A stretch of DNA of 32,938 nucleotides from Pedobacter sp. (GTDB taxonomy: Bacteria > Bacteroidota > Bacteroidia > Sphingobacteriales > Sphingobacteriaceae), in contig SEDB01000025.1 in NCBI GenBank assembly GCA_004210715.1, positions 1-32,938 of the forward strand, read 5' to 3'. Shown here in pieces: positions 2,178 to 27,063 of the stretch. Numbering within the stretch: the first letter of the stretch is position 1; every line of letters starts with the position of its first letter. The position numbers and the translations under genes were made by a program. A model generated the notes under the pieces. That model had not been told where the DNA came from. It ran no database searches and saw only the letters and a list, made by a program, of their open reading frames with translations.

Positions 2178-3656
2178 TTAGCTTAGGTCTTGGTCTATTA
2201 TTTTTGCTGAAAGTAATGCCAAGGGAATTCCGCCGCCCGGATGAACACTTCCTCCACAAAAATATAGTCCGTTGATTTTAGAACTGAAATTTGCGTGCCT
2301 TAAAAAGGCAGCGAACTGATTATTTGAACTATTTCCATAAAGTGATCCTTGAAAAGATCCTGTTTTCAATTCAATGCTGCGTGGATCAAGAATTTCTTCA
2401 CAGACGATATTTTCTGTAATGTCCACTTCTAATATTCTACTCAGTTTCTTGATGATATTTTGTTTAACAGTATTAATCAATATATCCCAATCCTGGCCAT
2501 TATTAGCTGGTACATTAATCATTACAAACCAGTTTTCACAATCTGTTGGTGCATCAGTTTTAATGTGTTTTGAAGTAATATTAACATAAACCGTAGGATC
2601 TTGATAAATGGTTTTATCTTTCCAAATGGCATCAAACTCTGCTTTGTAATCTTCCGAGAAAAAAATATTGTGCAAGCCCAATTCAGGGTTGATCCCTTTA
2701 ATTCCCCAATAAAAAATTAACGCTGAACTGCTTCTTTCTTGACTTAGCAGTTTCTCTGGCGCCTTAAAGTCTTTCAAAAGGTTTCGGTAAGTAAACCAAA
2801 TATCCAAATTGGAAATTACAACATTTGCTTTGCGAACCTGGTTCTTAAATTTAATACCTTCTACGTTTTTCTGGCTCCCTTCAACCTTATAAATGATTTC
2901 TTCTACCTTAGAATTGAAGTGAAATTTAACACCTAAATCTTCTGCCAGTTCTACCAATGATGTTGTAATGCTATACATACCTTTTTTTGGTAAAAAAGCA
3001 CCAAAATGATATTCAAAATGTGGGATTACATTTAAGGTTGCAGGTGCCTGATATGGATTGGAACCATTGTAGGTGGCATATCGGTTAAACAGCTGAACAA
3101 TTCTTTCATCCTTGAAATAGGTCGTATTGGCTTTTGCCTGCGATCTAAAAGCATCAATTTGGGCGAAGCGAAAAACAGATTTAACGGTGTCCCAATGTAA
3201 GTAACTTTTAATTTTATGAAGTGATCTTTGCAGAAAGACTTTATTTGTTACCTCGTAAATTGTCTCGCTTTTTTTAAGAAACTGATGCACTTCTTTTGCG
3301 CTCGAATTCGTTTTTTGTTCAATATCTTTTGCAAATTGATCAACGTCACTATGAGCTGTTAGCTTCAATCCGTCTTCATAAAAATACCTGCAAACCTCAT
3401 CCAGCTTTTCATATTCAAAATAATCTTTTGGATTTTTATTGGCCAATTGAAAGAGCTCATCAATATAGTGAGGCATGGTAAATAAGCTTGGGCCAGCATC
3501 AAACCTGAAGCCCTGCAGATTTATTTCAGCAAGTTTACCACCAGCATAAGTATTTGCTTCGAAAATTTCTACATCAAAACCTTTCACAGCAAATCTAATT
3601 GCGGCAGAAATTCCAGCAATTCCAGCACCGATAATTATGGCTTTTTGTTTAGGCAT
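2178..3656 (-). CDS. crtD: 1-hydroxycarotenoid 3,4-desaturase (CrtD-type, CrtI superfamily)
   Basis: An FAD-dependent carotenoid desaturase. It has the N-terminal dinucleotide-binding motif GAGIAG (about residues 10-15) and a C-terminal FAD/substrate region with GLYFCGGSVHPGGGIP. The central segment RYATYNGSNPYQAPATLN is the pattern I associate with CrtD (3',4'-desaturation of 1'-hydroxycarotenoids) rather than phytoene desaturase CrtI; this assignment is from family memory. CrtD also fits the CruF, glycosyltransferase and CrtW genes at 9.8-13.8 kb. The start is taken at the ATG at 3656; a TTG one codon upstream also fits. The start lies 4 bases after the stop of the M28 peptidase, so the two are probably co-transcribed. 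At 492 residues the length is normal. The alternative is another CrtI-family desaturase or saturase. Confidence 0.8.
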   Translation of the reverse strand: MPKQKAIIIGAGIAGISAAIRFAVKGFDVEIFEANTYAGGKLAEINLQGFRFDAGPSLFTMPHYIDELFQLANKNPKDYFEYEKLDEVCRYFYEDGLKLTAHSDVDQFAKDIEQKTNSSAKEVHQFLKKSETIYEVTNKVFLQRSLHKIKSYLHWDTVKSVFRFAQIDAFRSQAKANTTYFKDERIVQLFNRYATYNGSNPYQAPATLNVIPHFEYHFGAFLPKKGMYSITTSLVELAEDLGVKFHFNSKVEEIIYKVEGSQKNVEGIKFKNQVRKANVVISNLDIWFTYRNLLKDFKAPEKLLSQERSSSALIFYWGIKGINPELGLHNIFFSEDYKAEFDAIWKDKTIYQDPTVYVNITSKHIKTDAPTDCENWFVMINVPANNGQDWDILINTVKQNIIKKLSRILEVDITENIVCEEILDPRSIELKTGSFQGSLYGNSSNNQFAAFLRHANFSSKINGLYFCGGSVHPGGGIPLALLSAKIIDQDLS

Positions 3657-3660
3657 CAAT

Positions 3661-9201: not shown

Positions 9202-9708
9202 ATGGCATCACAACTCCTTATTCTTAATAAGAAACAAATTCAGCAGAAAATAGATCGTATTGCGTATCAAATTTTGGAAGATAATTTGAACGAGAAAGAA
9301 ATTGTACTTGCCGGAATTTGGGATCGTGGTTATAAATTAGCAGTTCGTTTAGAAAAGGTATTGAAAAAAATATCTGATTTTAAACTCACGCTTTTACGCA
9401 TCGATCTTCAGAAGGAGAGTAGCAAGCTCGTAGCCAAGACAGATTTAGATGAAAGCCACTGGAAAAATAAAGTGATTATCATTGTTGATGATGTGCTTAA
9501 TAGCGGAAAAACACTTGCTTATGGCCTGGGTGTTTTCTTAAATACACCACATAAAAAAATCCGTACGGTTGTTTTGGTTGACAGAAGCCATAAAATTTTC
9601 CCTATTGCTACAGATTTTGTGGGGCTTGAATTGGCTACGATATTAAAAGAACATGTTGATGTGGTAATGGATGTAGAAGGAGAAGAAGATCGGGTCTATT
9701 TGAGTTAA
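9202..9708 (+). CDS. Phosphoribosyltransferase, PyrR-like
   Basis: A type-I phosphoribosyltransferase of 168 residues. The PRPP-binding loop VIIIVDDVLNSGKTL is centred near residue 98. The tail segment HKIFPIATDFVGLELAT resembles the PyrR region RLIPI..DYVG. In Bacillus, PyrR binds pyr mRNA and has weak uracil phosphoribosyltransferase activity. In Bacteroidetes such a stand-alone copy often sits near shikimate kinase (here 7 kb away), so pyr regulation is not established. No pyr genes are in the window. Substrate base not determined. Confidence 0.85.
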   Translation: MASQLLILNKKQIQQKIDRIAYQILEDNLNEKEIVLAGIWDRGYKLAVRLEKVLKKISDFKLTLLRIDLQKESSKLVAKTDLDESHWKNKVIIIVDDVLNSGKTLAYGLGVFLNTPHKKIRTVVLVDRSHKIFPIATDFVGLELATILKEHVDVVMDVEGEEDRVYLS

Positions 9709-9797: not shown

Positions 9798-10421
9798 ATG
9801 TATCATCCCCGAAAAAATACTTTCATCTTTAATTTTTTTTCCTGGTACATTGAATTTATCATCAAAAAAGATTTTTCTGCTTTTAATTATGATCAGGCAG
9901 AACATAAAAATGATGCGTCGGTTTTGCTGTTGGCTAATCACTTCAGTTGGTGGGATGGTTTTTTTATTTTCTACATCAATAAAAAACTATTCAAAAAACA
10001 ATTTCACGTTTTAGTTAATTCAGATAATTACAAAAAAGTTGGGTTTTTGAAATATTTGGGCGCCTTTGCTCCAGAAAAAAAAGGCAAGGATGTGATGGAT
10101 ACCTTAAATTACGCCGGTGAACTATTGAATGACCCGAATAATTTGGTTTTGGTTTTCCCTCAGGGCAAATTGCACTCCAATCATACCAAATCTGTAGTTT
10201 TTGAAAAGGGAGTAATGCAGATGATTAATGCCAGTCAAAAAAAGATAAATATCATTTTTGCCGCAACCTTTGTTGATTACTTTGCAAAGCGTAAACCATC
10301 TGCCAACACCTATCTACAAAATTGGGAAAACGAAGAATATGTAAGTTTACAATTGTTAAAAAGTGCTTACAATAAACATTATGATCAGTCGCTTGTTAAA
10401 CAAACACAAATTACTGAATGA
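9798..10421 (+). CDS. Lysophospholipid-type acyltransferase (PlsC fold), carotenoid cluster
   Basis: An acyltransferase of the PlsC/LPLAT superfamily, 207 residues. Motif I NHFSWWDG (N47-G54, the NHxxxxD catalytic pair is H48 and D53) is intact. Motif III is FPQGK (F120-K124) in place of the usual FPEG, so Glu is replaced by Gln. The start is taken at the ATG at 9798; a TTG at 9783 would add five residues. The stop overlaps the next gene's start by 4 bases (ATGA). Because it is coupled to a glycosyltransferase and CruF, I infer that it acylates a carotenoid glycoside, comparable in role to CruD of green sulfur bacteria, rather than lysophosphatidate. That is inference from context only. Confidence 0.85.
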   Translation: MYHPRKNTFIFNFFSWYIEFIIKKDFSAFNYDQAEHKNDASVLLLANHFSWWDGFFIFYINKKLFKKQFHVLVNSDNYKKVGFLKYLGAFAPEKKGKDVMDTLNYAGELLNDPNNLVLVFPQGKLHSNHTKSVVFEKGVMQMINASQKKINIIFAATFVDYFAKRKPSANTYLQNWENEEYVSLQLLKSAYNKHYDQSLVKQTQITE

Positions 10422-11515
10422 CGATATTTATTTACGCGATTTTGATATTTCTGGTAATCAGGTTTTCAGTAACTGTATTTAACTTTCTTTCTAACCCGAA
10501 ACTCCCCAGAACGGTTAAGCATTATCAGGATAAAGTTTCCATTCTAATCCCCGCCCGAAACGAGGAAGAAAATATAATTTACTTGCTCGAATCTATTAAA
10601 AATCATGACTATTCCAACTATGAGGTTATTGTTCTGGATGATGACAGTACAGATAATACATATGATTTGGTTGCGCAGTTTTCTAAGGATAATCAAAAAT
10701 TCCGGGTTGTAAAAGGTAAACCACTTCCTGCAGATTGGCTTGGGAAAAACTATGCTTGTCATCAACTGGCTGCATTAGCCGACGGGAAATATTTTCTGTT
10801 TGTAGATGCTGATGAATCAATAAAAAAAGGATTGATTAATAGCTTGATTGATAGAACAGAAATAGGAGGTTTGGCTTTACTGAGCGTTTTTACCAATCAG
10901 GTAATGATTAGTATTGGAGAAAAGTTAACGGTTCCGCTGATGCATTTTATCTTATTGAATTTGCTCCCTTTACGATTGGTAAGATATGCTAAAAATCCGG
11001 CTTTCGCTGCGGCAAGTGGGCAGTGCATGTTCTTCAATGCAAAGAAATACCGTGAAAATCAATGGCATGAGCAGGTAAAATATCAAGTTGTAGAAGATGT
11101 TGAAATCATTAAATTGGTTAAACATAAAGAATATAATGCCGAAGCCCTTTTAGGCAATAGCCTGATTTATTGCAGGATGTATAAAAGTATGACTGAAAGC
11201 CTGAATGGCTTTAGTAAAAATTTACTTGCAGGTTTTGGTAATAACATTTTAATATTGCTATTTTACCTGCTTTTGGTAATTGTGGGGCCAGTAATTTTAA
11301 TCTTAAACTTTAATGCTGACTTACTTGTACTACCGATTACATTAATAGTGTTAAGCAGAATGATGATCTCTTATTTATCAGGACAAAATGTTTTAATAAA
11401 TTTGATTTTACATCCTTTACAGATGTTATTCTTCTTAGTTATTTCATTCATATCAATACAAAAACACATATTTAAAAAAGGTACATGGAAGGGCAGAACG
11501 ATCAAAGCGATTTAA
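10418..11515 (+). CDS. GT2-family membrane glycosyltransferase, likely carotenoid glycosyltransferase (CruG-like)
   Basis: A processive-type GT-A glycosyltransferase of 365 residues. One N-terminal transmembrane helix (residues 1-22) is followed by the GT2 domain: SILIPARNEEEN, DDDSTDNT (D74-T81) and the metal-binding DxD region VDADES (D130, D132). VVEDVEI is the putative catalytic-base motif. Two or three hydrophobic helices close the C-terminus (about 280-345). The start overlaps the acyltransferase by 4 bases and the end overlaps cruF by 31. CruG and CruC of carotenoid pathways belong to this family and add a sugar to the hydroxyl of the hydrated psi-end. The assignment rests on family plus tight coupling; the sugar donor is unknown. 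Confidence 0.85.
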   Translation: MTIFIYAILIFLVIRFSVTVFNFLSNPKLPRTVKHYQDKVSILIPARNEEENIIYLLESIKNHDYSNYEVIVLDDDSTDNTYDLVAQFSKDNQKFRVVKGKPLPADWLGKNYACHQLAALADGKYFLFVDADESIKKGLINSLIDRTEIGGLALLSVFTNQVMISIGEKLTVPLMHFILLNLLPLRLVRYAKNPAFAAASGQCMFFNAKKYRENQWHEQVKYQVVEDVEIIKLVKHKEYNAEALLGNSLIYCRMYKSMTESLNGFSKNLLAGFGNNILILLFYLLLVIVGPVILILNFNADLLVLPITLIVLSRMMISYLSGQNVLINLILHPLQMLFFLVISFISIQKHIFKKGTWKGRTIKAI

Positions 11516-12159
11516 AAGTTAAAAAAATTGCAGTTGCTGTAATCATCATTTTCCATTTAGTTGGTTTAATGGGTTTCCTAATTCCGGTTTCGCAACCTTA
11601 TTTTATCAAGTTAGTTCCTTTTCATTTATTATTGATGTTTGCCATCATTGTTTTCTCTTACAATGCAAATGTTAAGCGTTTATTGCTTTTTGTTTCTGGG
11701 GTTTTTCTTTGTGGCTATCTGGTAGAGGTGCTAGGCGTTCATACCGGGAAAATATTTGGCAGCTATTATTATGGGGATACATTGGGCTACAAAATTGCTG
11801 CCGTTCCTTTACTAATGGGTGTTAACTGGGTAATTCTTATTTTTAGTGTGGGCCAGATGATGAAAAGTTTTAAAATTAGAAACAGCATAGTTGCCTCGTT
11901 GTTGGGTGCAATAGCATTGATTATTTTCGATTACTTTTTAGAACCAGTTGCCATGAAGTTTGACTACTGGCAATGGGATTGGCACGAAGTACCTGGGCAA
12001 AATTTTGTAGCCTGGTTTATTGTCTCCGTAATTTTGTTAAAATTTTACTATGCATTGGGTTTAAAGCAGCAGAAATATATAGGTGTTGCCATGTTTGCCT
12101 CACAGTTAATCTTTTTTGTTGTCTTGTACATGACAACAGGAACAAATATTTTTGCTTAA
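11485..12159 (+). CDS. cruF: Carotenoid 1',2'-hydratase, CruF family
   Basis: A polytopic membrane protein of 224 residues with about seven transmembrane helices, matching the carotenoid biosynthesis family that includes CruF (Caroten_synth). Conserved-looking segments are YLVEVLGVHTGKIFGSYYYGD and the neighbouring VPLLMGVNWVILIF, then FDYFLEPVAMKFDYW. CruF hydrates the psi-end of gamma-carotene (C1',2') without a cofactor, giving the 1'-hydroxyl that CrtD needs. The ATG at 11485 lies inside the glycosyltransferase gene in another frame, a 31-base overlap, and no other ATG suits. The gene ends 12 bases before ispH. The family call is strong; the exact substrate is inferred. Confidence 0.88.
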   Translation: MEGQNDQSDLKVKKIAVAVIIIFHLVGLMGFLIPVSQPYFIKLVPFHLLLMFAIIVFSYNANVKRLLLFVSGVFLCGYLVEVLGVHTGKIFGSYYYGDTLGYKIAAVPLLMGVNWVILIFSVGQMMKSFKIRNSIVASLLGAIALIIFDYFLEPVAMKFDYWQWDWHEVPGQNFVAWFIVSVILLKFYYALGLKQQKYIGVAMFASQLIFFVVLYMTTGTNIFA

Positions 12160-12164
12160 TTTTG
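12157..12164 (+). promoter_or_regulatory. -7 promoter box for ispH
   Basis: TAATTTTG matches TAnnTTTG and ends 7 bases before the ATG of ispH, overlapping the cruF stop codon. A second match (TATTTTTG, 12147-12154) precedes it. No convincing -33 TTTG was found. It suggests ispH can be transcribed on its own with almost no leader. Confidence 0.4.
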
Positions 12165-12171
12165 CAAAGCA

Positions 12172-13020
12172 ATGAGTTATAACTTACAAGTCAACATCGA
12201 TAAATCATCGGGCTTTTGCTTCGGCGTTGTCTACGCGATTGAGATGGCAGAAGATATTCTAGATAACGAGGGTTATTTATACTGTCTTGGCGATATTGTT
12301 CATAACGACGAAGAAGTTCAACGTTTAACCAATCGTGGTTTAAAAATCATCGATCATGATGTGTTGAAAGATCTGAAAAACGAAAAGGTTTTAATCAGGG
12401 CGCACGGTGAGGCACCATCAACCTATAAATTGGCGTTGGAAAATAATCTTACCCTTATTGATGCCTCTTGCCCGGTTGTGCTGAAACTCCAAAACAGAAT
12501 AAAAAATTCTCATGATGATGAGGAGCAAATTTTAATTTTTGGTAAACATGGCCACGCAGAAGTGATTGGTTTACAAGGTCAAACGGATGGAAAAGCAATA
12601 GTTTTCCAGGATTTGGCTGAGCTGGATGGTGTTGAATTACCTTCAAAATTTACCCTATACAGCCAAACCACTAAAAGTGTAGATAAATTTTATCACATAA
12701 AAGATCAACTGCTATCTCGTGGCTATGAAGTGAAGGCCAATGATACCATTTGCAGGCAGGTTTCAAATCGTTACGAAGAGCTGGAAAACTTTGTAAGTCA
12801 TTACGATAAAATTATTTTTGTTTCCGGTAAGAAATCATCCAACGGAAAGGTGCTTTATGATGTGTGCAAAAAGTACAATGATCATTCTTACTTCATTTCT
12901 AATGTGGAAGAGTTGAATCAGAACTGGTTTCAAGAAAATGACAAAGTGGGTATTTGTGGCGCTACCTCGACACCAATGTGGTTGATGGAAAAGGTTAAGG
13001 CCGAACTGGAGAAATACTAA
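12172..13020 (+). CDS. ispH: 4-hydroxy-3-methylbut-2-enyl diphosphate reductase
   Basis: Catalyses the last step of the MEP isoprenoid pathway (HMBPP to IPP and DMAPP); a cytoplasmic 4Fe-4S enzyme. The three cluster cysteines are visible: Cys16 (SSGFCFGV), Cys100 (DASCPVV) and Cys194 (NDTICRQ). Other conserved motifs are RAHGE, GKHGHAEVIGLQGQ with the active-site histidine, TTKS, and SGKKSSNGKVLYDVC near the substrate-binding Ser/Asn. At 282 residues it is full length. It sits between cruF and crtW, so isoprenoid precursor supply is physically linked to carotenoid tailoring. The start at 12172 is set by the motif distance and the upstream promoter box. Confidence 0.95.
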   Translation: MSYNLQVNIDKSSGFCFGVVYAIEMAEDILDNEGYLYCLGDIVHNDEEVQRLTNRGLKIIDHDVLKDLKNEKVLIRAHGEAPSTYKLALENNLTLIDASCPVVLKLQNRIKNSHDDEEQILIFGKHGHAEVIGLQGQTDGKAIVFQDLAELDGVELPSKFTLYSQTTKSVDKFYHIKDQLLSRGYEVKANDTICRQVSNRYEELENFVSHYDKIIFVSGKKSSNGKVLYDVCKKYNDHSYFISNVEELNQNWFQENDKVGICGATSTPMWLMEKVKAELEKY

Positions 13021-13090
13021 ATACATTTTCTTAAATCAATTTTCGGTTTAAGCTGTTTAATCGAATACTTAAAAAAGATTAATACGTAAA

Positions 13091-13774
13091 TTGAAAAATG
13101 TCAACTCATTTTCCGGAGTTTTGGTTGCTATAAGCGTAATAGTTTGCTGGTTTGTTTCCTTGTTTTTCTTGTTAAGATGGGATTTTGAATGGGCTAATCC
13201 ACTGGTTTACCTGATGATTTTGGTACAGATGCATCTATTCACAGGGCTGTTTATTACTGCACATGATGCCATGCATGGAACAATTTCCCCAAATAAAAAC
13301 ATCAATAATTTTTTCGGTTACCTTGCTGTTTTTCTTTACGCAGGTTTCTTTTACAATCGCTTATACACTAAACATCATCAACACCACAGCCATGTGCATA
13401 CAGAGGAAGATCCTGATTTTGCACCACACGGCTTTTGGAAATGGTATTTCCGTTTTATGATGAATTACGTAACCATTATCCAGCTGGTGATTATGGCCAT
13501 CGCTTATAATGTACTTAACATTTGGGTTGATGAAGAAAATCTTTTGCTTTTCTGGGTATTGCCATCGCTGCTAAGTACTTTTCAGCTTTTCTATTTTGGA
13601 ACATATTTGCCGCATAAGGGTGAGCATAATAACGAATATCATGCCTCAACCTTAAAGAAAAATCATTTTGTAGCTTTCATTACCTGCTATTTTTTTGGCT
13701 ATCATTTAGAACATCACCAAAAACCAGGCATGCCTTGGTGGCAACTGTATAAAACAAAATCTAATCATGGTTAA
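13091..13774 (+). CDS. crtW: Beta-carotene ketolase, CrtW type
   Basis: A membrane di-iron oxygenase that adds a 4-keto group to the beta-ring. Histidine clusters are visible: HDAMH (H58, H62), HHQHH (H95-H99, with H101) and the C-terminal GYHLEHH (H205, H208, H209) followed by PGMPWWQL. The segments LFTGLFITAHDAMHG and FYFGTYLPHK are CrtW-like and differ from fatty-acid desaturases. The start appears to be a TTG at 13091; no in-frame ATG lies between it and the stop 19 bases upstream, and the next Met (residue 42) is too late because it would remove the first helix. A 70-base gap separates it from ispH. The alternative is a hydroxylase of the same superfamily. Confidence 0.85.
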   Translation: MKNVNSFSGVLVAISVIVCWFVSLFFLLRWDFEWANPLVYLMILVQMHLFTGLFITAHDAMHGTISPNKNINNFFGYLAVFLYAGFFYNRLYTKHHQHHSHVHTEEDPDFAPHGFWKWYFRFMMNYVTIIQLVIMAIAYNVLNIWVDEENLLLFWVLPSLLSTFQLFYFGTYLPHKGEHNNEYHASTLKKNHFVAFITCYFFGYHLEHHQKPGMPWWQLYKTKSNHG

Positions 13775-13888
13775 TTAAATAAAACTGATTAGAATTTGAC
13801 TAAAAAATGTCTGCGATCATATTTTTGAGATAGGTAAAAAACAATAAAAACGCGATATTTGCGGCACAAAACATATTCTTATATTCAA

Positions 13889-14899
13889 ATGAGCAAGAAG
13901 GGAATTTTACTGGTTAATTTAGGAACTCCTGATAGTCCGCAAACTGCAGATGTTAGAAAATATCTCGATCAATTTTTGATGGATGAAAGGGTAATTGATA
14001 TTCCTAAACTAAACAGGACCTTATTGGTAAAAGGAATTATTGTTCCGTTCCGAAGCCCAAAAACCGCCAAACTATATAAAGAAATATGGAATGAGAACGG
14101 TTCCCCACTTTTGTACTATAGCCGTTTGCAAGCTAAAATGCTGCAAGAAAGGTTAGGAGATGACTATCATGTGGAATTGGCCATGCGCTATCAAAGTCCA
14201 TCGATTGCTTCAGCTTTAGCAAACTTAAAAGCTGGTTTAGTAGAAAGCATTCAGGTAATCCCGATGTTTCCGCAATATGCATCAGCCAGTTCCGGATCTG
14301 TAATGCAATTAGTGATGGAATTAGTAAGTAAATGGCAAACTGTTCCGCCAATATCATTCGTTAATTCGTTTCACGATAATGAATTAATGATCAAAGTTTT
14401 TGCTGAAAATGCTCGTAAGCATCAGGTGGAAAGTTATGATCATGTATTGTTCAGTTTTCATGGTTTGCCAGAAAGACAGTTGCTAAAATGCGATCATACG
14501 GGCAGTTATTGTTTAAAAAATGCCGACTGTTGCCAAACCTTGAATGATACCAATAAATTTTGCTATTCTGCCCAAGGACATGATACCGCAAGATTAATCG
14601 CAGCCGAATTAAATCTTGCCAAAGATAAATATACAGTTTGTTTTCAGTCTCGCTTAGGAAAAGAACCTTGGGTTCAGCCATACACTACAGATGTTTTAAA
14701 GAAACTGGCAGCAGAAGGGAAAAAACGACTATTGGTTTTTAGTCCTGCCTTTGTAGCCGATTGCTTGGAAACACTTTATGAGATCACGGTTGAATATCAC
14801 GAAGAATTTAGAGCATTGGGTGGCGAGCATGTTCAGCTGGTGGAGAGTTTGAATGATAGTCCTGTATTTATCGAGGCTTTGGCTGGAATGATTAAATAA
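13889..14899 (+). CDS. hemH: Ferrochelatase
   Basis: Inserts ferrous iron into protoporphyrin IX (or coproporphyrin III in some bacteria), the terminal heme step. N-terminal GILLVNLGTPDSP, the FSFHGLPER motif with the catalytic histidine, and the C-terminal FSPAFVADCLET region identify the family. The start is taken at the ATG at 13889, giving 336 residues; a TTG at 13859 would add ten residues with no homology. A GATATTTGCGG box just upstream resembles the promoter consensus. A central cysteine-rich stretch (C201, C208, C214, C215, C225) follows the HGLPER motif and may bind an Fe-S cluster. gntK follows 8 bases after the stop. Confidence 0.93.
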   Translation: MSKKGILLVNLGTPDSPQTADVRKYLDQFLMDERVIDIPKLNRTLLVKGIIVPFRSPKTAKLYKEIWNENGSPLLYYSRLQAKMLQERLGDDYHVELAMRYQSPSIASALANLKAGLVESIQVIPMFPQYASASSGSVMQLVMELVSKWQTVPPISFVNSFHDNELMIKVFAENARKHQVESYDHVLFSFHGLPERQLLKCDHTGSYCLKNADCCQTLNDTNKFCYSAQGHDTARLIAAELNLAKDKYTVCFQSRLGKEPWVQPYTTDVLKKLAAEGKKRLLVFSPAFVADCLETLYEITVEYHEEFRALGGEHVQLVESLNDSPVFIEALAGMIK

Positions 14900-25632: not shown

Positions 25633-27063
25633 ATGGAAAAAACTTGTACAGAAGTGTGGAAGAACTGTCTTCAAATTATTAAGGATAACATCCCGAATCA
25701 AAGTTTCAAAACTTGGTTCGAGCCTATCACAGCCCTTAAATTGGAAGGTAAGGTTTTAACCATACAAGTGCCAAGTTTGTTCTTTTACGAATGGCTTGAA
25801 GAACACTACGTAGGTTTACTACGTAAAACAGTAAAAAAGCAACTTGGAGAGGACGGCAGGTTGGAATACAACATCGTTGTTGATAAATCATCAAACAGCG
25901 GTAATCCTTATACTACTAACATGCCATCAAATGGGAACGGGGCAGAGGCAAAAGTTCAATCTATGCCAATTCCTGTTTCAATCAATAAGGATATTAAAAA
26001 TCCATTCATCATCCCTGGATTAAAAAAATTAAATGTTGATCCGCAGTTAAATGCCAACTACACTTTTGAAAATTATATTGAGGGAGATTGTAACCGTTTA
26101 GCCCGTTCTGCAGGTTATGCTGTAGCCGCTAAACCAGGTGGTACTTCATTTAATCCACTAATGATTTACGGCGGTGTGGGTTTAGGAAAAACACACTTAG
26201 CGCAAGCTATTGGAAACGAAATTAAACGCAGTATGCCAGATAAACTGGTTATTTATGTGAGCTGCGAGAAGTTTTGCCAACAGTTTGTAGATTCATTAAA
26301 GAACAATACCATTAACGACTTCGTTAATTTTTATCAGGCAATGGATGTAATCATCATGGATGACGTACATAACTTTGCCGGCAAGGAAAAAACTCAGGAT
26401 ATTTTCTTCCATATTTTTAATCACTTACACCAATCTGGCAAGCAGGTAATCTTAACATCAGATAAAGCGCCTAAAGATTTAGCTGGTTTAGAAGAGCGTT
26501 TGTTAAGCCGTTTCAAATGGGGTCTTTCTGCTGATTTGCAGATTCCAGATTTAGAAACGCGTATAGCTATTTTAAGAAAGAAAATGTATGCAGACGGTAT
26601 TGAGTTGCCAGGTGAAGTTGTAGAATATGTTGCCCATAACATAGACAATAACGTTCGTGAATTAGAAGGTGCTATGGTTTCTTTGCTTGCTCAGGCAACT
26701 TTGAATAAGAAAGAGATCGATTTAGCGTTAGCTAAGCAGATGTTGAAGAATTTCATAAAGAACACTTCCAAAGAGATTTCAATGGAATATATCCAGAAAT
26801 TGGTGTGCGAGTATTTCGAAGTTCCTGTAGATATGGTTAAATCGCAAACGCGTAAACGTGAAATTGTTCAGGCCCGTCAAATTTCAATGTATCTTTCAAA
26901 AAGCCATACAAAATCATCATTAAAAACAATTGGTGCTTTCTTTGGTGGTCGCGATCACAGTACCGTGATTTATGCTTGCCAAACGGTTGAAGATTTGATA
27001 GACACGGATAAGAAATTTAAAGCTTATGTTCACGATATTCAAAAGAAGTTGAAAATGAGCTAA
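25633..27063 (+). CDS. dnaA: Chromosomal replication initiator protein DnaA
   Basis: Initiates chromosome replication by binding DnaA boxes and melting the origin. Domains: I (residues 1-75, VWKNCLQIIKDNIPNQSF), a short linker II, the AAA+ domain III with Walker A GGVGLGKT (180-187) and Walker B IIMDDVH (240-246), and DNA-binding domain IV with the signature GGRDHSTV (438-445). 476 residues, normal length. The upstream region contains DnaA-box-like 9-mers. A strong bidirectional hairpin follows the stop. dnaN and recF do not follow, which is common in Bacteroidetes, where dnaA is often separate. Confidence 0.97.
   Translation: MEKTCTEVWKNCLQIIKDNIPNQSFKTWFEPITALKLEGKVLTIQVPSLFFYEWLEEHYVGLLRKTVKKQLGEDGRLEYNIVVDKSSNSGNPYTTNMPSNGNGAEAKVQSMPIPVSINKDIKNPFIIPGLKKLNVDPQLNANYTFENYIEGDCNRLARSAGYAVAAKPGGTSFNPLMIYGGVGLGKTHLAQAIGNEIKRSMPDKLVIYVSCEKFCQQFVDSLKNNTINDFVNFYQAMDVIIMDDVHNFAGKEKTQDIFFHIFNHLHQSGKQVILTSDKAPKDLAGLEERLLSRFKWGLSADLQIPDLETRIAILRKKMYADGIELPGEVVEYVAHNIDNNVRELEGAMVSLLAQATLNKKEIDLALAKQMLKNFIKNTSKEISMEYIQKLVCEYFEVPVDMVKSQTRKREIVQARQISMYLSKSHTKSSLKTIGAFFGGRDHSTVIYACQTVEDLIDTDKKFKAYVHDIQKKLKMS

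Follow-up and report, generated by a model that had tools for sequence, protein, structure and literature searches.

The stretch analyzed here, called the window, comprises positions 1 to 32,938 of contig SEDB01000025.1, from the draft genome of a soil Pedobacter (assembly GCA_004210715.1; 4.19 Mb, 756 contigs, 78% complete; the window is contig C603). Genes encoding an acyltransferase (AT), a family 2 glycosyltransferase (GT2), a CruF-type carotenoid hydratase, IspH and a CrtW-type ketolase lie consecutively and head to tail on the + strand, with a CrtD desaturase gene on the - strand (Table 1); the gene order and positions given in an earlier note on this DNA were borne out. From the coordinates, AT and GT2 overlap by 4 nt and GT2 and CruF by 31 nt, followed by gaps of 12 nt between CruF and IspH, 70 nt between IspH and CrtW, and 84 nt between CrtW and HemH. 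The AT contains the HX4D and FPxG acyltransferase motifs, and the translation of CrtW contains the histidine boxes HDAMH, HHQHH and HLEHH, a triplet of the kind found in membrane desaturases and CrtW.

Table 1. Carotenoid block, CrtD and conserved neighbors in the window; bit scores are followed by model cut-offs in parentheses
Feature	Position	Strand	Evidence
AT, CruD-like PlsC-superfamily acyltransferase, 207 aa	9798..10421	+	PF01553 36.4 bits (23); NHFSWWD and FPQGK motifs
GT2 glycosyltransferase, 365 aa	10418..11515	+	PF00535 Glycos_transf_2 85.4 bits (23.3); DDD, DAD and VEDVE motifs
CruF-type carotenoid 1′,2′-hydratase	11485..12159	+	PF04240 Caroten_synth 95.4 bits (25)
IspH, final enzyme of the methylerythritol phosphate (MEP) isoprenoid pathway	12172..13020	+	LYTB 287.8 bits (24.5); NF002187 377.5 bits (276)
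CrtW-type beta-ring 4-ketolase	13091..13774	+	PF00487 FA_desaturase 89.5 bits (29.7); three histidine boxes
CrtD 1-hydroxycarotenoid 3,4-desaturase	2178..3659	-	NF042421 619 bits (500)
HemH ferrochelatase, conserved downstream neighbor, outside the pathway	13859..14899	+	TIGR00109 270 bits (124.6); synteny
PyrR-like phosphoribosyltransferase (PRT), upstream neighbor in most Pedobacter loci	9202..9708	+	PF00156 75.6 bits; synteny

The predicted model of the AT (pLDDT 88) matched GPAT and PatA folds, PatA being the mycobacterial acyltransferase that acylates a mannose of a glycolipid. The AT profile gave no match at E ≤ 1 against PDB sequences. When 395 genomes of the phylum were searched with a profile built from 25 ATs, 194 proved to contain relatives. 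Outside the family, 18 AT loci were fetched, comprising the best scores plus some from genomes of families f18 and f24, and 16 were placed (L225 and L227 were unplaced, the L225 AT being read on its own). Nine of the 16 lie among crt genes (L232-L239, L241), and in eight of these nine the next gene is GT2, with CruF within two genes of the AT/GT2 pair; the order at L237 is CrtI-CrtB-CrtYcd-CrtD-AT-GT2-CruF-CrtW. At L230, L231 and L242 only GT2 lies near AT, and at L224, L226, L228 and L240 neither GT2 nor crt genes do.

When 20 AT-positive genomes were searched for FMO, all 15 from f18 and f16 were positive, whereas FMO was absent from the 5 belonging to f24, and f18 and f16 were therefore taken to be green sulfur bacteria; these genomes were chosen for having AT, and the result does not extend to all green sulfur bacteria. 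AT-profile matches in the 15 FMO-positive genomes, chosen for a match, had E values of 6e-22 to 8e-28, and genome G402 has a single match, at 911,298. Published work is cited throughout from excerpts of the papers. CruD is assigned a position following CrtC and CruC in the Chlorobaculum tepidum pathway (PMC6166724), and a "carotenoid glycoside acyltransferase (cruD)" is named in Chloroflexus (PMC4155588). The hydratase of Thermomicrobium roseum is reported to include an acyltransferase domain that is believed to attach the acyl chain to the glycoside, and Salinibacter ruber is said to divide this work between two enzymes, cruF and cruD (PMC2615216). The last acylation step, which the earlier note called poorly defined, thus already has CruD assigned to it (PMC6166724, PMC4155588). 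By homology and context, the AT of the window is best read as CruD-like.

At the loci of relatives, including those outside the family, neighboring genes took their names from BLAST comparisons with the genes of the window, a procedure that unrelated types of crt gene would escape. Named loci were classified for the best 80 of 442 confirmed; these come from Pedobacter, Daejeonella, Arcticibacter or metagenome-assembled genomes of Sphingobacteriaceae/Sphingobacteriales, and records nearly identical to the window were possibly excluded. The closest relative of the AT among these 80, from Pedobacter chinensis, is 84% identical. The order AT-GT2-CruF-IspH-CrtW-HemH was found in 51 of the 80 and AT-GT2-CruF-IspH in 4, a recurrence showing that the block is neither chance nor a quirk of assembly. 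CruF-positive type strains include P. terrae DSM 17933 and P. suwonensis DSM 18130. A further 17 read AT-pseudoGT-IspH-HemH, where pseudoGT is the degenerate frame described below, 7 read AT-IspH-HemH, and one (L160) was uninformative because of a contig end. In 18 relatives chosen for spread, AT, GT2 and CruF adjoin IspH in 14, and 13 of the 14 also have CrtW, HemH or both; the other four are L043, L044, L049 and L055, of which L055 reads AT-GT2-IspH-CrtW and has CruF elsewhere in its genome.

Matches were also counted in 300 genomes of the order, own genome included; the loci of these genomes and the named loci overlap through shared contigs, and the two sets of counts are not additive. CruF was found in 141 genomes, AT (E ≤ 1e-5) in 191 and GT2 (E ≤ 1e-40) in 186. 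A close AT (E ≤ 1e-40) was present in 139 of the 141 CruF genomes, own genome included, the exceptions being G268 and G243. At L072, L073, L075 and L077, GT2 with intact motifs adjoins IspH, with no AT or CruF in the locus. A second acyltransferase type, AT2, from another genus or genera, lies beside AT or directly before GT2 at L054, L056, L057, L058, L074 and L076, and shares about 31-34% identity with the AT of the window where the two are in tandem.

The earlier note suggested a genome search for crtB, crtI and crtY, and CrtB-family, CrtI and CrtYcd genes are present there. CrtI (L039:6984-8468; NF058655, 750 bits, cut-off 640) and a fused CrtYcd cyclase (L039:10593-11285; TIGR03462, 99.7 bits, cut-off 39.4) share a contig with a gene for a CrtZ-like protein of 147 aa (L039:886-1329; PF04116, 43.3 bits), 5.6 kb from CrtI. 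A CrtB-family (squalene/phytoene synthase) gene lies on a separate contig, L040 (PF00494, 134 bits, cut-off 26), and its relatives adjoin CrtI in five other genomes. Counterparts of seven genes of the Algoriphagus flexixanthin set were found in this way, crtZ through PF04116 only and crtB through PF00494; crtE was not searched. At L040:6734-8984 (contig C67), the CrtB-family gene is flanked by genes for isopentenyl diphosphate isomerase (IDI) and a MerR regulator that contains a domain for B12 binding. This regulator is CarH-like (84 bits, cut-off 400) and is a possible light-controlled switch for carotenoids.

From the genes, motifs, predicted folds, conservation and linkage given above, we infer each reaction and the order of the steps, and likewise which sugar and acyl chain are attached and where. 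CrtB, CrtI and CrtYcd would make gamma-carotene, CruF would add water to give a 1′-hydroxyl, and CrtD would introduce the 3′,4′ double bond. The ring would be finished by CrtW (4-keto) and the CrtZ-like enzyme (3-hydroxyl), yielding flexixanthin. GT2 would then put a sugar on the 1′-hydroxyl, and the CruD-like AT would transfer a fatty acid to that sugar. If the CrtZ-like protein were inactive, the product would be a deoxy, salinixanthin-like form, and the two readings would merge. The block thus probably carries out psi-end tailoring and ketolation of a monocyclic C40 carotenoid, leading to a red acyl-glycosyl flexixanthin or to the deoxy form. Because a CrtZ-like hydroxylase is present in the genome and the gene set, crtE aside, is that put forward for Algoriphagus flexixanthin, acyl-glycosyl flexixanthin fits better than salinixanthin, which has no 3-hydroxyl. 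The earlier note had predicted an acyl-glycosyl keto-carotenoid of the salinixanthin kind; its tailoring genes stand, with acylation of the glycoside likely the last step, while salinixanthin itself gives way in view of the CrtZ-like protein.

Modules of similar makeup are known. To our knowledge, the C. tepidum pathway contains no ketolase or 3-hydroxylase. The CrtC/CruC/CruD module of this green sulfur bacterium (PMC6166724) hydroxylates, glycosylates and acylates a monocyclic carotenoid, as the Pedobacter block would, and AT homologues occur in FMO-positive genomes, themselves chosen for AT. C. tepidum hydroxylates with CrtC, whereas the Pedobacter block has CruF; at the green sulfur loci L224, L226 and L228 no recognized GT2 adjoins the AT homologue, and the AT is 256-289 aa long in green sulfur bacteria but 207 aa in the window. 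The genes put forward for the Algoriphagus flexixanthin pathway (PMC10784355, which gives protonated flexixanthin an m/z of 583.41) are also those of Pedobacter apart from the unsearched crtE. In the excerpt of that paper no glycosyltransferase or acyltransferase gene is named, whereas Pedobacter adds GT2 and AT and has its tailoring genes linked with ispH-hemH, at a separate place from crtB, crtI and crtYcd. Salinixanthin of S. ruber and Rhodothermus marinus (PMC5822342, PMC2615216) is, like the proposed Pedobacter product, acyl-glycosyl, 4-keto and monocyclic. As described in these excerpts, R. marinus uses a CrtO ketolase, its authors found no CrtC or CruF homologue and its cruC lies away from the cluster; S. 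ruber has xanthorhodopsin as a partner.

Several observations weigh against the proposed pathway. CrtW (best NCBIfam match NF045690, 228 bits, cut-off 350), CruF (TIGR03460, 68 bits, cut-off 154.7; NF045693, 37 bits, cut-off 400) and GT2 (HpnB, 122 bits; CruG, 108 bits, CruG cut-off 600) all scored below cut-off, and because these NCBIfam equivalog cut-offs were missed, the names "CruF-type" and "CrtW-type" are used. The CrtB-family gene scored below the cut-offs of the NCBIfam CrtB models, and the CrtZ-like protein had no NCBIfam match and fell only into the broad FA_hydroxylase family PF04116. At the three placed Chlorobiaceae loci, AT does not adjoin recognized crt genes. G402 is tentatively identified as C. 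tepidum TLS, and its AT-like protein, whose position would suit CT0967 (cruD), tentatively as CruD. A close AT unaccompanied by CruF occurs in 28 of the 300 genomes, of which 26 belong to the genus of the window, and the AT is therefore not tied solely to 1′-hydroxylated carotenoids; in the other two (G058, G176) the type beside GT2 at the locus is AT2. Strong GT2 matches (E ≤ 1e-100) were found in 17 genomes without CruF. The assignment of the window block to the known acyl-glycosyl keto-carotenoid modules, with a putative CruD-like AT, is well supported.

Among other products, a salinixanthin-like acyl glycoside, 4-keto without a 3-hydroxyl, would result if the CrtZ-like protein acted elsewhere or not at all. 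The genes that this deoxy form requires are present, and the CrtZ-like gene stands at a distance from CrtI rather than adjoining it and matched a broad family. However, in five relatives (L105-L108, L112) a related CrtZ-like gene forms part of a CrtI-CrtB-CrtZ-CrtYcd cluster, which points to hydroxylation of the carotenoid ring; the deoxy product is rated rather unlikely. Somewhat less likely still is that GT2 and AT have the 3-hydroxyl of the ring, or several carotenoids, as their target, rather than specifically the 1′-hydroxyl made by CruF. The four loci in which an intact-motif GT2 adjoins IspH without CruF would fit this, as would the AT kept in CruF-less genomes, of which the five examined carry zeaxanthin-type clusters; against it, the co-occurrence of AT and CruF is near-complete, and GT2 and CruF are close together in most loci. 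It is very improbable that the AT acylates lysophospholipids or other polar lipids, beside ispH by chance and unrelated to carotenoids. Its PlsC-superfamily family and fold would suit such a role, as would its retention, at a dN/dS of about 0.05, in a clade that lacks both CruF and a motif-bearing GT2. Against this, it scored 20.6 bits on TIGR00530 (cut-off 102.95), is linked to crt genes in 9 of the 16 placed loci outside the family, accompanies CruF in 139 of 141 genomes, and gave no match (E ≤ 1e-5) in 109 of 300, as a housekeeping gene would not. A phospholipid acyltransferase, the homology that the earlier note had set against its own proposal, was rejected in view of the TIGR00530 score, the crt linkage and the patchy distribution.

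Salinixanthin serves xanthorhodopsin as an antenna, and the earlier note suggested looking for a rhodopsin elsewhere; none was found. PF01036 rhodopsin gave no match in the own genome (completeness 78%; control genomes were also without a match in that search), nor in any of 110 sampled genomes of the genus. Of the 300 genomes sampled across the order, 13 scored over cut-off for PF01036, none of them from this genus, and the search therefore works. CruF was present in 12 of these 13 genomes, a count that ignores common descent, and three rhodopsins were found among 38 AT-positive genomes of other families. Rhodopsin genes of sister genera are at L079-L092. One of them, L082, is closest to proteorhodopsins in a PDB comparison of this one sequence and has tyrosine at the site of green proteorhodopsin's tryptophan, as do, by eye, 10 proteorhodopsin-like sequences; we take this site to be the antenna window that decides antenna binding. 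With PF01036 absent from the genus sample, a rhodopsin antenna is not supported for the organism of the window.

In the 26 genus genomes that have a close AT but lack CruF, the absence of a CruF match is genome-wide. They were selected for keeping AT, and the 31 of 110 genus genomes without a close AT are not among them (78 and the own genome have one). Neither CrtW nor CrtD was found in their PRT-AT-IspH-HemH loci (fetched loci, 4.8 to 20 kb). A CrtYcd-type match was present in 22 of the 26 and in none of the other 4, and in the five inspected elsewhere (L105-L108, L112) CrtI, CrtB, CrtZ and CrtYcd occur together, a zeaxanthin-type set. The 26 group together as a single clade, both on the tree of AT (support 0.95) and on a tree of five flanking genes (SH-aLRT 91; node not starred); in the first IspH+HemH FastTree, CruF-positive Pedobacter are nested among CruF-negative ones. 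Because the six outgroup loci of the five-gene tree carry CruF, loss is the simpler reading, and a single loss of CruF in the 26 is likely, though not proven.

An open frame of 294-326 aa occupies the place of GT2 in 20 of the 26 (for example L049:10280-11242 and L060:9663-10580). Both aspartates of the DD motif are kept in none of the 20 frames (L068 has Ala-Asp), the ED motif is kept in none, and DAD is kept in two. Two of these pseudo-glycosyltransferase (pseudo-GT) frames were run against Pfam and NCBIfam and matched no family. The predicted fold (pLDDT 76) matches GT-A enzymes, with modest TM-scores of about 0.4-0.6 by query length. Over residues 1-37, mostly predicted helix and taken to be the first membrane helix, pseudo-GTs are 61% identical to the window GT2 (intact GT2s, 57%); over residues 38-140 the values are 25% and 62%, and over the C-terminal part 37% and 53%.

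Rates were estimated from pairs with dS 0.05-2, which share sequences and are not independent. The pseudo-GT frame gave a median dN/dS of 0.12 (25 of 190 pairs; range 0.08-0.30), compared with 0.05 for AT (22 of 190 pairs) and 0.03 for IspH (19 of 190 pairs) in the same clade. When one pseudo-GT gene was changed by random point substitutions, the frame remained open in 4 of 2000 cases at distance 0.2 and in 0 of 2000 at 0.5. The dN/dS, the kept frame and the lost motifs together show that the pseudo-GT frame is under purifying selection without glycosyltransferase motifs. Its overlap with AT measures 4 nt in 19 of the 20 frames (8 nt in L049) and 4 nt in 17 of 17 named loci, partly the same strains as the 20. 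At the five CruF-positive Pedobacter loci, one of them that of the window, the intact GT2 shows an identical 4-nt overlap with AT, and the coupling therefore predates the decay.

In the other 6 of the 26, no GT2-like frame of at least 90 aa was found. Arginine replaces the catalytic histidine of HX4D in the AT of L043, L044, L059 and L102, and L069 and L103 keep the histidine; in the motif count, L062 and L064 fit no pattern and were scored as neither. Arginine is also found in 5 of the 7 AT-only named loci (L155, L159, L162, L174, L190). These arginine-type named ATs are 67-93% identical to one another, and arginine-type ATs gave dN/dS of 0.04-0.11 (six pairs with finite dS, three of them with dS <2; four pairs saturated). 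A conserved, histidine-less AT is not what would be expected of a simple relic.

The conserved pseudo-GT and the conserved histidine-less AT lead us to lean, by a small amount, toward a second, non-catalytic function of the AT/GT2 pair that outlived acyl-glycoside synthesis, for example as a membrane scaffold or regulator tied to isoprenoid or carotenoid metabolism. Our guess is that AT and GT2 make up a complex in the membrane, which kept a structural role after its chemistry was lost. The alternative is a slow decay of AT and GT2, held up by translational coupling toward ispH. If a second function is correct, two adjacent pathway enzymes have become conserved pseudoenzymes, and this in named type strains; CruF-negative examples are P. 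steynii DSM 19110, with the pseudo-GT, and P. insulae DSM 18684, with the histidine-less AT. The surprising part lies in the pseudo-GT2 and the histidine-less AT of the relatives; the acylation chemistry itself is of a known kind. Among the matches listed, in which titles and abstract openings were covered and subscription journals were mostly outside, no report was found on carotenoid biosynthesis genes of Pedobacter or on a pseudo-glycosyltransferase paired with an acyltransferase.

One large clade of Pedobacter is chiefly pink or red and another chiefly white or yellow, a split described in the excerpt of PMC7254926 as apparently unreported before. Whether CruF and CrtW are present is a candidate cause of this color difference, one that can be tested; losing both genes would account for the published but unexplained split. 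With this block, the search for acyl-glycosyl carotenoids also gains bacteria that can be cultivated and are not phototrophic, and their acyltransferase would fall into the known CruD-like family. The window additionally carries dnaA (25633-27063).

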